64,000 nt of DNA, from the NCBI GenBank assembly GCA_918797485.1, contig CAKKNE010000006.1, positions 3,410,001 through 3,474,000 on the forward strand, given 5' to 3'. Origin of the DNA: Pelagomonas calceolata (Eukaryota; Sar; Pelagophyceae; Pelagomonadales; Pelagomonadaceae). Of this stretch, positions 12,104 through 60,071 are shown piece by piece (position 1 is the first letter of the stretch; each line of letters begins with the position of its first letter). The notes under the pieces were generated by a model. That model made no database searches. It had not been told where the DNA came from and was given only the letters and a program-made list of their open reading frames with translations. The position numbers were made by a program, and so were the translations under genes.

Positions 12104-12205
12104 TCAGAGGGCAGCAGGAGCAAGCTGCCCCACGCACTGCTGTGTAAAACTAAAGAGGGCAGCAGGAGAAAGCTGCCCCACACGGCATTGCTGTGTAAAA
12201 CCAAA
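12104..12205. repeat. Imperfect tandem direct repeat, ~50-bp unit, two copies
   Basis: Two copies of a unit that begins AGAGGGCAGCAGGAG, continues AAGCTGCCCCAC and ends TGCTGTGTAAAAC, just upstream of the first F-box gene. Each unit holds an internal inverted repeat GGGCAGC/GCTGCCC, so each can form a small hairpin. Confidence 0.75.
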
Positions 12206-12208
12206 CAT

Positions 12209-13543
12209 ATGGAGCTCTCCGCCAGCGCGCAGGGCGACGCGCGCATCGTTGCGGCGCGATCGCTGCCACGGAGCGTAGCCCACTTGGACCGGGCGGTGCT
12301 CTTCCAGATCTTTGATTACCTGCGAGACGCGCTTGCATTTCTGCAGTGCGAGGCGACGTGTGTTGATTTCCGCAGCCTCCTGCGAGAGGACGGCGACACT
12401 ATCGGACAAATCGGACAAAAACTCTGGCAGGCGCGGCCCATCGCGTACGGTGCGCGGATTTTCGCGACGGGCGGGACTGCGTATACAGAGGAAGAGTTGG
12501 AGGACTTAGATGAGCAGTACTGGGCCGGCACGGTTGGATGGACGGAGCGCCACAACGACGAGATCTGCGACGGCGGCCGGGAGGTCGTACTCGGTTTCGC
12601 ATGTATGGACGCCATAGGTGCAGCGCAGCGCTTGCACGGCGCAATCATAGCGCCGCTCGCAGGAGAGCAGTGGACGCCACTACTAAATCGCTTGCATCGG
12701 TGGAGTAACCTCAGCATTCAACGTCCTCTCGACATGTTTTCCAGTGCCGTGGTTCTCGCCGCGACCGAGTCGGTCGAGGCGTGGATCATCGATCTCATGG
12801 AAAAAGGCTGGCTGTGTGCCCTTCACCGGGGGAAAATGATCGTCACAGGGAACGACATAAAATTGGCCGCCCGTTGTTCAGATGATTTAACCGCCCGAGG
12901 CACTGAATTTCCTGGGTGTGCTTCTTGGAAATCCAACGCAATATATAAATCCCTCAACGAAAGCGGCGATAGACCGTTGGCCGAGCTCCTCGCCGAGCTC
13001 GATGGGCCGACGCAGGAGCGCATCATACGGACGCTTGCGCGTCGCGCCGGCTTCGCTGCGTACGATAATTCTGCTTACGAAACGTTATGGAGGCTTGTAT
13101 TACTTCGCCTTTGCGTGCTGTTGGAGCGCGTCGACGCCGTATACTTTAATACGACGCCCGAAGACTGGGAAATTCGTTTCCCCACTCCCGAAAGCTGGAA
13201 ACGCTCGAAGCACAGGCCGAGCCTCGAGACTCTCGCGTATGTCTTGCAGAATGGCTCCGGACCAATGACCCCGCCGCCGCCCCACCAATACGCGCCGTTT
13301 CGCGACGAGGACGACGGCAGCTTCCGCTCGGACGACTGCAGCGACACGGACGACGACGACGACTCCTCGATAGGCGGTGGGTCAGTGCACGAAAACGACT
13401 CCTCGATAGGCGACGAGTCCGCGCAGCCGTCCTCCGTCGCCGACCGGCTCGCCTCGCTCGCGTCGCTCCGGTCGTCCGGGGCGCTCACGGAGGCGGAGTT
13501 CGCGCGCGCCAAGGCGCTCGAGCTTGGGCTACCCGTCCCGTAA
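12209..13543 (+). CDS. F-box protein with H3-like and H4-like histone folds and a SHOCT tail (copy 1)
   Basis: About 444 residues. Residues ~26-60 form an F-box (HLDRAVLFQIFDYL...CVDFRSLLRE). Residues ~153-225 resemble histone H3 alpha1-alpha3: EAWIIDLMEKGWLCALHRGK lines up with H3 [20 protein letters not shown], followed by NDIKLAAR for H3 KDIQLARR. Residues ~270-348 resemble H4: IIRTLARRAGF against AIRRLARRGGV, then AYETLWRLVLLRLCVLLERV as alpha2 and LETLAYVLQ against MDVVYALKR. An acidic Asp/Ser stretch and a SHOCT-like motif (DRLASLASLR...GALTEAEFARAK) end the protein. An SCF adaptor holding a histone-fold pair is inferred. Histone-fold assignment is by eye only. Start ATG 12209. Confidence 0.6.
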   Translation: MELSASAQGDARIVAARSLPRSVAHLDRAVLFQIFDYLRDALAFLQCEATCVDFRSLLREDGDTIGQIGQKLWQARPIAYGARIFATGGTAYTEEELEDLDEQYWAGTVGWTERHNDEICDGGREVVLGFACMDAIGAAQRLHGAIIAPLAGEQWTPLLNRLHRWSNLSIQRPLDMFSSAVVLAATESVEAWIIDLMEKGWLCALHRGKMIVTGNDIKLAARCSDDLTARGTEFPGCASWKSNAIYKSLNESGDRPLAELLAELDGPTQERIIRTLARRAGFAAYDNSAYETLWRLVLLRLCVLLERVDAVYFNTTPEDWEIRFPTPESWKRSKHRPSLETLAYVLQNGSGPMTPPPPHQYAPFRDEDDGSFRSDDCSDTDDDDDSSIGGGSVHENDSSIGDESAQPSSVADRLASLASLRSSGALTEAEFARAKALELGLPVP

Positions 13544-13570
13544 TTGAAGATTGTTTACGACTGATCAATC

Positions 13571-13593
13571 CTAGTGTGTCTCGTAACGCTAGC
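13571..13593. promoter_or_regulatory. Dispersed palindromic upstream motif, divergent copy
   Basis: CTAGTGTGTCTCGTAACGC then TAGC, a loose match to the family, 108 bp upstream of the second F-box gene. Confidence 0.4.
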
Positions 13594-13700
13594 TCGGCGT
13601 AAAAGCGGCGCTAGGCTGCCAGGCTGCTGCTCTGAGCTCTCTGCCGTGCTGCGTTGCTGCATCCTTTCGCCGCGACCGCATCCTCCACGCCTGGGCACTC

Positions 13701-15011
13701 ATGGCACCGGAGCTGCCGCAGGCGGTCTGGTTCCAGGTCTTTGACTACTTGCGCGACGCGCGCGCGTTCCTGCAATGCGAAGTGGTGGCGAAAGAACACC
13801 GCGATTTATTGCGGGACGAGAAATTAGGTAAAAAATTGTGGGAGGCGCGGCCGATCGCGTACGGCGCGCGCTTGTTCGCGACGGGCGGGCCGCCGCATGG
13901 CGGGCCACCGCTGGGTGAATGGCATCGTTTACGTGACTGGGAAAGGATTTGCGATGGCAGCCAAAGCTACACGACGTTAGACGATCTCGAGGTCCCCGAC
14001 GGAGGCCGGCAAGGCGTGCTCGAGTTCGCGTGCCTCGATGCTATAGCGGTGGAGCAGCGCTCTGACGGTCCAATTATACTCGCGGAGGTAGACAGAGGGG
14101 TCTGGCGAAGACTTGTTGAGAAATGCTTTGATAGGGCACGAGAGGAGCCCCGAGCGCTGGCACCGAGACGTTTTTTCGACGTCCGGCTAACAAATGAATT
14201 GGTGCGCGTTGCAACTGACATGGTCGAGGGCTGGTTTAATGATGTCACCGAAAATGTGGTTAGATTGGCTACGCACCGTGACTCCGCCACGGTGACCTTT
14301 CGCGACATCAAGGCCTTATGCGCTGTCACTAGAGACATGACTCTTATTGCGTGCTCCTTAGCCTCATTGTCGTCAGCAGAGCAAAACTTTAACTTCATCA
14401 TATCTGATCGAGTCGTGCCCGAGCTCAACTCGCACGGATTCGTCTCCGACCTCGGCGTCGCAGCGGACCGGGTCATGCGGCGGTTCGTGCGAAAGGCCGG
14501 CGGGTTCGCGTACGATGGCGCGGCCTACAGGGCCCTGTGTAAGATCCTATTGATTCGCCTTTGTGATACTTTGGACCGCTGCGCTTTGCACTGCATGTCT
14601 AGGGAGAACATCGACCTGAAGATGGTGGGCGGCAATCCACCTAGCGGGAGCTGGTCGTATTGGGTTCCTGCTGCCGCTGGGCCTCCGGAAAGAAGGCCCG
14701 TGCTGACGCCGGTCCTCGAGGATCTTTTGCAGGTCGCAACGCTTGGCCCCGAACGGTGCGGCGTTGCTGATAGCTACGTCACGGGTCGTTGGTATGGCGA
14801 CGATGTCTGCTCCGACGACGGCAGCTTTCACACGGACGACTGCGGCGACACGAGCGACGACGACGACTCCTCGATAGGCGACGAGTCCGCGCCACAGTCT
14901 TCCGTCGCGGACCGACTCGCGTCGCTCGCGTCGCTCCGCGCGGCCGGGGCGCTCACGGAGGCGGAGTTCGCGCGCCAGGCGCTCGAGCTTGGGCTCTCTT
15001 CGGGCCTGTAA
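13701..15011 (+). CDS. F-box protein with H3-like and H4-like histone folds and a SHOCT tail (copy 2)
   Basis: 436 residues, a tandem paralogue of the preceding gene with the same order of parts: F-box at ~4-40 (LPQAVWFQVFDYLRDARAFL), H3-like fold at ~133-209 (WRRLVEKCFDRA as alpha1, VEGWFNDVTENVVRLATHRD as alpha2, TVTFRDIKALC as alpha3), H4-like fold at ~258-346 (VMRRFVRKAGGF, AYRALCKILLIRLCDTLDR, LTPVLEDLLQVA), an acidic stretch and a SHOCT-like end (DRLASLASLR...TEAEFARQALELG). The two copies are closest at the F-box and the tail and diverged in the middle, so the pair is not recent, yet both kept the helix pattern of both folds. Keeping that pattern argues that the folds are functional. 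Single exon, ATG at 13701. Confidence 0.6.
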   Translation: MAPELPQAVWFQVFDYLRDARAFLQCEVVAKEHRDLLRDEKLGKKLWEARPIAYGARLFATGGPPHGGPPLGEWHRLRDWERICDGSQSYTTLDDLEVPDGGRQGVLEFACLDAIAVEQRSDGPIILAEVDRGVWRRLVEKCFDRAREEPRALAPRRFFDVRLTNELVRVATDMVEGWFNDVTENVVRLATHRDSATVTFRDIKALCAVTRDMTLIACSLASLSSAEQNFNFIISDRVVPELNSHGFVSDLGVAADRVMRRFVRKAGGFAYDGAAYRALCKILLIRLCDTLDRCALHCMSRENIDLKMVGGNPPSGSWSYWVPAAAGPPERRPVLTPVLEDLLQVATLGPERCGVADSYVTGRWYGDDVCSDDGSFHTDDCGDTSDDDDSSIGDESAPQSSVADRLASLASLRAAGALTEAEFARQALELGLSSGL

Positions 15012-59497: not shown

Positions 59498-60071
59498 ATG
59501 GCCCGCTCCAAGACCACGCCCCGCATCGGCGGCGAGACCGGCGCTGGCACGCCAGCAAAAAAAAAGACGCCGACGAAGCGGAAGCAGCGGCTGCGACCGG
59601 GAGAGGCGGCGCTCAAGGAGATCCGCAAGTACCAGCGCTCTACCGATTTGCTGCTGCGGAAACTGCCCTTCGCTAGATTAGTACGGCAGGTCCAGCAGGG
59701 TCTGGCGCCGCACTGTGTGGAAATCAAATGTCGGGCGCCCCACGCCATCGACGCGATGTTGTCTCCGTAGCTGCGTCTGCTCGATGGCGTGGAGTTTCCA
59801 GGCCATCGACGCGACGTTGTTCCCGCGACCGCGTCGGCTCGATGGCGTGGAGGTTCAGGGCAATCTAACTCGCTGGTTGATTTCCACACAGGCGCCGCAC
59901 GACTTCCGCTGGCAAGCCGCGGCTTTGGTCGCGCTGCAGGAGGCCGCGGAGGCGCACCTCGTCGGGCTGTTCGAGGACGCGAACCTGTGTGCGATTCACG
60001 CCAAGCGCGTGACGATCATGGTCAAGGACATGCAGCTCGCGCGGCGCATCCGGGGCGTGCTGCGGGAGTAG
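59498..60071 (+). CDS. Centromeric histone H3 variant candidate (CENP-A/cenH3-like)
   Basis: Exons 59498..59704 and 59892..60071, 128 residues. The tail [17 protein letters not shown] differs from canonical MARTKQTARKST and lacks the ARKS motifs. The fold is clear: [34 protein letters not shown], then after splicing [40 protein letters not shown] and [11 protein letters not shown]. Loop 1 is one residue longer than in H3, and [13 protein letters not shown] matches CENP-A (F-WQA-AL-ALQEA) rather than H3 (FQSSAVMALQEA). It probably marks centromeric nucleosomes. A replication-independent H3 variant is the alternative. Confidence 0.75.
59705..59899 (+). mobile_element. Introner element in the histone gene, family A, exact target duplication, GC-AG splice
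   Basis: Direct repeats GCGCCGCA at 59705-59712 and 59892-59899 flank a 179-bp element with ends CTGTGTGGAAATCAA and TTGATTTCCACACAG (perfect 15-bp inverted repeats). Interior CCACGCCATCGACGCGATGT and CCATCGACGCGACGTTG. Restoring APHDFRWQ requires a cut before the first GCGCCGCA, so the donor is GC. Confidence 0.9.

Follow-up and report, generated by a model that had tools for sequence, protein, structure and literature searches.

What kind of protein results when an F-box is joined to a pair of histone folds, and what such a protein might do, is the question raised by two tandem genes of Pelagomonas calceolata. The genes lie within a 64,000-nucleotide stretch of contig CAKKNE010000006.1 (positions 3,410,001 to 3,474,000, forward strand), which is referred to here as the window and whose own numbering is used for window positions. 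A preliminary description, made from the letters alone, had placed two F-box genes at 12209..15011, each encoding an F-box, an H3-like and an H4-like histone fold and a SHOCT tail. Both frames were found at that place, uninterrupted from ATG to stop on the + strand (Table 1), and the architecture was recovered by Pfam, PDB and AlphaFold2 (AF2) analyses, the H4 label being the weak part of it by sequence. Because neither frame is interrupted and homologs align along their length, a pseudogene or artefact was ruled out for both copies; homologs of the copy 1 type begin at the same start as copy 1 in the alignment.

By sequence comparison, H3 is the histone fold nearest to the first fold. Copy 1 matched the Pfam Histone family (E 2.5e-4, residues 176-222), and the segment in which an H3 pattern had been noted was likewise matched by phmmer to H3 chains of the PDB (E 2.7e-4, residues 176-223). 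When a family profile was searched against the PDB, H3 chains stood at the top with an E-value of 1.9e-7. Scored against nine targets, the H3-like fold reached z 12.5 with H3, 11.3 with a cenH3 exon and no more than 3.0 with the other seven. The profile E-value, together with the z-scores and the shuffle and chunk controls, ruled out chance resemblance for this fold. In the eight proteins for which a position was given, the Histone match covered the second half of the profile (positions 73-121 of 122), from helix 2 to helix 3. Copy 2 was matched by Pfam to the histone-fold family TFIID_20kDa (E 0.0041). The earlier claim that both patterns were kept in the diverged copies held for the predicted folds of both, and not for copy 2 searched alone against the PDB, where no histone was present among 13 sequence matches under E 10.

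AF2 predicted two consecutive three-helix histone folds in each chain, in the segments proposed for both copies, and packed the two folds against each other as a handshake dimer. The best structure matches were chains carrying two histone folds, on which ground chance resemblance was ruled out for the pseudodimer; for copy 1 the best Foldseek match had E 5.5e-3, with match probabilities near 1. Profile searches of the whole proteins returned histone-fold families and no unrelated helical family. Of the two outcomes that the preliminary description had named as refuting it, neither was observed. Such a family was ruled out, since none recurred in Pfam scans of members; stray weak matches (DUF6471, SAMD1_WH, DnaB_bind, SfsA_N, Sigma70_r4 and others) occurred in one or two members each.

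On the predicted structure the second segment is also a histone fold, and by sequence it is possibly of H4 type. An insertion of variable length, present in copy 1, precedes its third helix. The helices lie where an H4 pattern had been claimed; the sequence match itself came to 10 residues. Without gaps, H4 aligned best to the family profile over this stretch (IRRLARRGGV), with z 4.2 against 1.4 for the next of nine targets, and a longer family profile gave a gapless match of 19 residues (z 3.4, next target 1.6). The H4 register (+239) was extended by hand over residues 264-314. Shuffled H4 equalled the H4 score in 15 of 5000 cases, and six of 1859 chunks from outside the family scored above H4. 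The PDB profile search gave two sequences under E 10, an unrelated one at 0.22 and an H4 chain at E 1.0; the latter has Ala at position 45, as the family has, and other H4 chains were above E 10. A hidden Markov model search of 1352 frames placed two spurious frames ahead of H4 (E 0.6-2.1), which the longer profile missed. No Pfam histone family was matched by any of 21 excised second segments. Because the shuffles, the chunks, the model ranking and this Pfam null all count against H4, the second fold is called only possibly H4-like.

By profile, the N-terminal module is an F-box. Curated Pfam cut-offs were passed for each module by some family member: Histone by P0123 (33.8 bits, cut-off 26.4), F-box-like by P0038 (25.0 bits, cut-off 24.3) and SHOCT by P0007 (29.3 bits, cut-off 27). 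Local alignments of copies 1 and 2 gave 38-45% identity, distributed unevenly over the modules (SHOCT 81%, F-box 60%, histone folds 29-37%). Four-fold sites shared by the copies were identical at 22 of 28 positions in the SHOCT part and 35 of 71 elsewhere (Fisher p 0.012); this only suggests that the copies have converted each other's tail. The tail of copy 1 (residues 351-444) contains 20 D+E against 6 K+R. A GvpG Pfam match in 11 of 44 and 8 of 62 members lay on the SHOCT tail wherever its position was given. The SHOCT tail looks like a shared C-terminal cassette, possibly mobile, because it is present on genome frames that have no other match to copy 1. Such tails were observed at G000:C2:459019-459138 (L012, 85% identity), C6:2055628 (L014, 57% identity to the copy 1 tail), C5:3109666 (L016, 59%) and C3:4628522 (L015, 48%, the matching stretch being interrupted by a stop).

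A third genome copy of 443 amino acids lies on a different contig (L011:1099-2430); Pfam gave F-box-like at 6e-4 and Histone at 0.016 for it, and no SHOCT match. Three protein searches together yielded at least 128 protein ids, copy 1 included. A search with an 11-member profile retrieved 119 proteins at E<=1, all of them at 3.6e-59 or better, among the 8000 candidates sharing most words, a selection that more distant relatives can escape. The sources of the records are ena, jgi or lgn; apart from copy 1's own, no contig exceeds 20.5 kb, and the records are taken to be environmental. At E<=1, 44 members gave F-box-like in 30, SHOCT in 30, Histone in 26 (best 3.3e-7) and CBFD_NFYB_HMF in 19. 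At E<=0.1, a 62-member set (alignment A7, rows picked by hand) gave Histone in 44, F-box-like in 42, SHOCT in 27, TFIID-31kDa in 16 and CBFD_NFYB_HMF in 9. An identity as TAF9/TAF6 or NF-Y was rejected as weaker than H3, the best TFIID-31kDa match being 0.0025 against 3.3e-7 for Histone. Neither BTB domains nor ankyrin repeats were matched by Pfam in the 44 or 62 members.

Residue conservation was counted in alignment A6, whose 117 rows comprise the three proteins of this genome and 114 of the 128 protein ids. The 14 ids left out are P0001, which is identical to copy 1, and the short or partial P0026, P0027, P0029, P0035, P0036, P0037, P0039 and P0123 to P0128. As about 80 of the rows are of the third-copy type and mutually close, counts over 117 are not independent, and 15 representatives (rows less than 75% identical to each other over residues 147-349) were considered beside them; the z-scores, the shuffle and chunk controls, the hidden Markov model search and the entropy comparisons used these representatives too. 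Among these the F-box had the highest mean pairwise identity of seven regions (0.67), followed by the folds at 0.41 and 0.48 and the spacers at 0.23 and 0.15, the tail lying outside the seven regions.

With H3 and H4 numbering applied as we assume it, the equivalents of H3 H113, D123 and E97 were kept in all 117 rows, C110 in 112 and L126 in 114; H113 and D123 we take to be part of the H3-H3' four-helix bundle. In the hand-extended H4 register, the equivalents of H4 R35, R39, R40 and Y51 were kept in 117, 117, 113 and 112 rows. H3 R83, R116 and H4 R45, presumably loop residues holding DNA, fared differently: R116 was replaced by Ser and R45 by Ala in 115 rows each, and at R83 the commonest residues were Glu (63), Met (22) and Lys (21). 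H3 A114, which we assume to lie in the H3-H3' interface, was Arg in 116 of 117, a change that may alter the partner of this face. In the 15 representatives H113, D123, E97, R45A and A114R were invariant (15/15), with L126 and R116S in 13 each and C110 in 12. Judged by these positions, neither fold retains much of the loop grip on DNA, and the dimer-dimer face is largely kept. The presumed DNA-side positions showed no difference in conservation against the others (entropy 1.51 vs 1.42, p 0.70). In copy 1 the pseudodimer is neutral (24 K+R, 25 D+E) and the whole protein acidic (43 K+R, 68 D+E); a basic histone tail was not seen, its place being occupied by the F-box. The sequence is thereby not that of a nucleosomal core histone, which would carry the loop arginines H3 R83, R116 and H4 R45 and a basic tail.

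We favour, at slightly less than an even chance, a reading in which each gene encodes a substrate receptor of a Skp1-cullin-F-box (SCF) type ubiquitin ligase that uses a histone pseudodimer as bait for a histone partner. Its basis is the architecture, the family, the fold prediction and the residue conservation, from which we infer Skp1 binding, target and outcome. The F-box would bind Skp1, as its family suggests, and matches to Skp1, cullin and ASF1 are present in the genome. The middle of the protein is predicted to form a single-chain pseudodimer, H3-like and then probably H4-like, paired as a handshake. Because most DNA-holding loop arginines are gone it probably no longer wraps DNA, and because key residues of the H3-to-H3 surface are kept it may bind proteins and act as a bait by which a histone partner is captured. 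That partner could be a dimer of H4 with H3 or with CENP-A, or a chaperone of H3-H4 reading the H3 face, and would be presented for ubiquitination; a histone, CENP-A or a chaperone is the favoured class of partner, at under even odds. Histone chaperones use acidic stretches to hold basic histones, and the acidic stretch of copy 1 could help in the same way. The SHOCT tail would be an accessory cassette, found on other genome frames too. A fuller history, in which an F-box protein acquired an H3-H4 pair that gave up most of its DNA grip, kept the H3 dimer-dimer face and came to capture unassembled H3-H4 or CENP-A-H4, or their chaperone, for ubiquitination, and in which the target side diversified by divergence and module swaps, we consider rather unlikely. 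The arrangement could let a cell recognise or mimic histones, the family is a simple test case for whether the histone fold can be reused as a degradation bait, and it may offer a new handle on algal control of free histones or CENP-A.

Several results weigh against the bait reading. Neither window copy had a Pfam match above the curated cut-off, and between them the SHOCT tail is better conserved than the F-box. Whole-model AF2 confidence was low (mean predicted local distance difference test 63 and 60; predicted template modelling score 0.48 and 0.49), the F-box region was poorly modelled (about 51-58), and no Foldseek match for copy 1 was under E 0.001. For the second fold, chance resemblance to H4 still stands as an explanation of its weak sequence label. 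The interface positions, as we assume them, were only marginally more conserved (mean entropy 0.93 vs 1.55, p 0.055). Since A114 is Arg in nearly every row, the canonical H3-H3' contact may not form, and since Lys replaces R83 in 21 rows and H4 R35, R39 and R40 are kept, some contact with DNA is possible. Finally, Sos-type pseudodimers show the fold to be usable for purposes unrelated to chromatin (PMC13088155).

The pseudodimer could instead be a scaffold, or a variable target site for partners other than histones, which we regard as a real possibility though well short of an even chance. The pseudodimers of Sos and ABTB2 are non-nucleosomal according to the same review (PMC13088155). The divergence of the folds among the representatives fits a variable target site better than a site constrained by near-invariant histones, and the arginine at A114 points the same way. 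The selective pattern, in which H113, D123, E97, C110 and L126 are kept and most DNA-holding loop arginines lost, is not obviously needed for scaffolding. A DNA- or chromatin-binding factor, in which the pseudodimer would attach to DNA in the manner of NF-Y or archaeal histones and thereby recruit SCF activity to chromatin, seems improbable: the retained H4 R35, R39 and R40, the lysines at R83 and the CBFD_NFYB_HMF and TFIID-31kDa matches speak for it, and are opposed by the replacement of H3 R116 and H4 R45, by Glu or Met at R83 in most rows, by the neutral pseudodimer in an acidic protein and by the missing basic tail. Least probable of all, and in our view very unlikely, is a fast-diversifying recognition or defence family whose histone pair baits viral histones or chromatin-attacking viral proteins and whose modules are shuffled, for which there are numerous divergent variants and three records that switch type after the F-box part, and against which stand the possibility that these records are assembly artefacts and the absence of viral relatives from two scans of viral contigs that reach close relatives only.

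Those three records are P0033, in which residues 1-84 are identical to P0009 (67/67) and the remainder is of copy 2 type, and P0028 and P0094, whose N-terminal identities are 78/80 and 68/68; domain swapping or assembly chimeras may account for them. The viral-contig scans used copy 1 and the third copy as queries, copy 2 not being among them, and reached close relatives only; within that reach nothing was found to support a viral origin.

Among known systems, ABTB2 (Cca3), like the window genes, joins a single-chain histone pseudodimer to a domain of the cullin-ligase class, in its case BTB, which has a role with cullin-3. The available part of the review describes ABTB2 as ankyrin repeats, BTB and a double histone fold in animals, with BTB instead of an F-box and with no SHOCT tail described there; the folds of ABTB2-related Cca3S are nearest H2B and H2A, unlike the H3-like first fold here (PMC13088155). 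The Marseillevirus-type doublet (PDB 7n8n chain A) has H4-H3 order, forms viral nucleosomes on DNA and lacks an F-box, whereas the window family has lost most DNA-holding loop arginines. Sos (1q9c, 3ksy), SPT3 (6t9i), Methanopyrus HMk (1f1e) and bacterial double folds (1wwi, 1r4v) are of other fold types, H2B/H2A-like in Sos, with other or no attached domains and no F-box.

The preliminary description had given published doublets as H4-H3 or H2B-H2A. These are the common viral orders, but H3-H4 has been published for medusavirus stheno, in a passage that names clandestinovirus beside it in ambiguous wording (PMC9145170). In the portion of that source at hand, medusavirus H3 is close to eukaryotic H3 and its H4 very divergent, and fused doublets among eukaryotic histones were unconfirmed as of 2022; the medusavirus stheno doublet shares the H3-H4 order by description, its histones being viral and no F-box being mentioned there (PMC9145170). 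The yeast SCF-Met30 and SCF-Cdc4 are likewise F-box receptors and act on the H3 variant CENP-A (Cse4), but are F-box/WD40 proteins for which the part of the source available mentions no receptor histone fold (PMC7032732). An F-box family with a captured transposase DNA-binding domain is also on record, as far as the source was available (PMC12062965). The 2026 review of double histone folds nowhere uses the word F-box, and no such member is in its table (PMC13088155). Among the listed titles and abstract beginnings of papers no F-box joined to a histone fold was found. The H3-H4 order itself and a histone pair with BTB (ABTB2) are already known; those titles and abstract beginnings contained no cell-encoded histone-fold pair, H3-like first, within a likely ubiquitin-ligase adaptor.

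Table 1. Features of the two F-box genes and their 5' flank (window positions; aa, amino acids)
Feature	Position	Strand	Evidence
Copy 1, F-box / double-histone-fold / SHOCT gene	12209..13543	+	open frame, ATG to stop, 444 aa, without visible intron
Copy 1 F-box-like domain, aa 30-60	12296..12388	+	Pfam F-box-like E 0.012
Copy 1 H3-like histone fold, aa 147-223	12647..12877	+	Pfam Histone, PDB H3, AF2 helices 147-164, 179-206, 214-223
Copy 1 second histone fold, aa 266-347, H4 nearest, insertion ahead of third helix	13004..13249	+	AF2 helices 266-280, 287-315, 339-347; weak H4 signal
Copy 1 acidic Asp/Ser stretch	13301..13420	+	sequence
Copy 1 SHOCT-like tail, aa 412-436	13442..13516	+	Pfam SHOCT E 6.2e-5
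Copy 2, architecture as in copy 1	13701..15011	+	open frame, ATG to stop, 436 aa
Copy 2 F-box-like domain, aa 4-42	13710..13826	+	Pfam F-box-like E 3e-4
Copy 2 H3-like histone fold, aa 132-210	14094..14330	+	AF2 helices 132-147, 165-192, 200-210
Copy 2 second histone fold, aa 253-348	14457..14744	+	AF2 helices 253-265, 273-301, 339-348
Copy 2 SHOCT-like tail, aa 404-426	14910..14978	+	Pfam SHOCT E 7.7e-5
Tandem 48-base unit, 2 copies, 88% matches	12106..12205	+	directly 5' of copy 1 ATG

The 48-base repeat upstream of copy 1 contains an internal inverted repeat (GGGCAGC..GCTGCCC), and its 25-base core has no other site in the window at <=3 mismatches. The genome comprises 32.45 Mb in 8 contigs; for strain RCC100 the accessible part of the published account gives six nuclear contigs of 32.4 Mb with a plastid and a mitochondrion (PMC9481584). 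Contigs 1 and 5 share a duplicated block, and an F-box match falls at almost identical coordinates in the two. A 776-codon frame with a weak Histone match at G000:C5:1126924-1127073 (E 0.03, short of the cut-off) possibly encodes another large histone-fold protein.

Elsewhere in the window, positions 59498-60071 (+) encode a divergent variant of H3, seemingly split over two exons. It differs from the six full-length canonical H3 matches that this genome has, and from its sequence is a CENP-A (cenH3) candidate. Its likely intron, 59705-59900, carries TGTGTGGAAATCAA / TTGATTTCCACACA as inverted ends, and the direct repeat GCGCCGCAC occurs on its two flanks at 59705-59713 and 59892-59900, as would be expected of a transposon-born intron (introner). 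Read by eye, its splice ends could be GC-AG.
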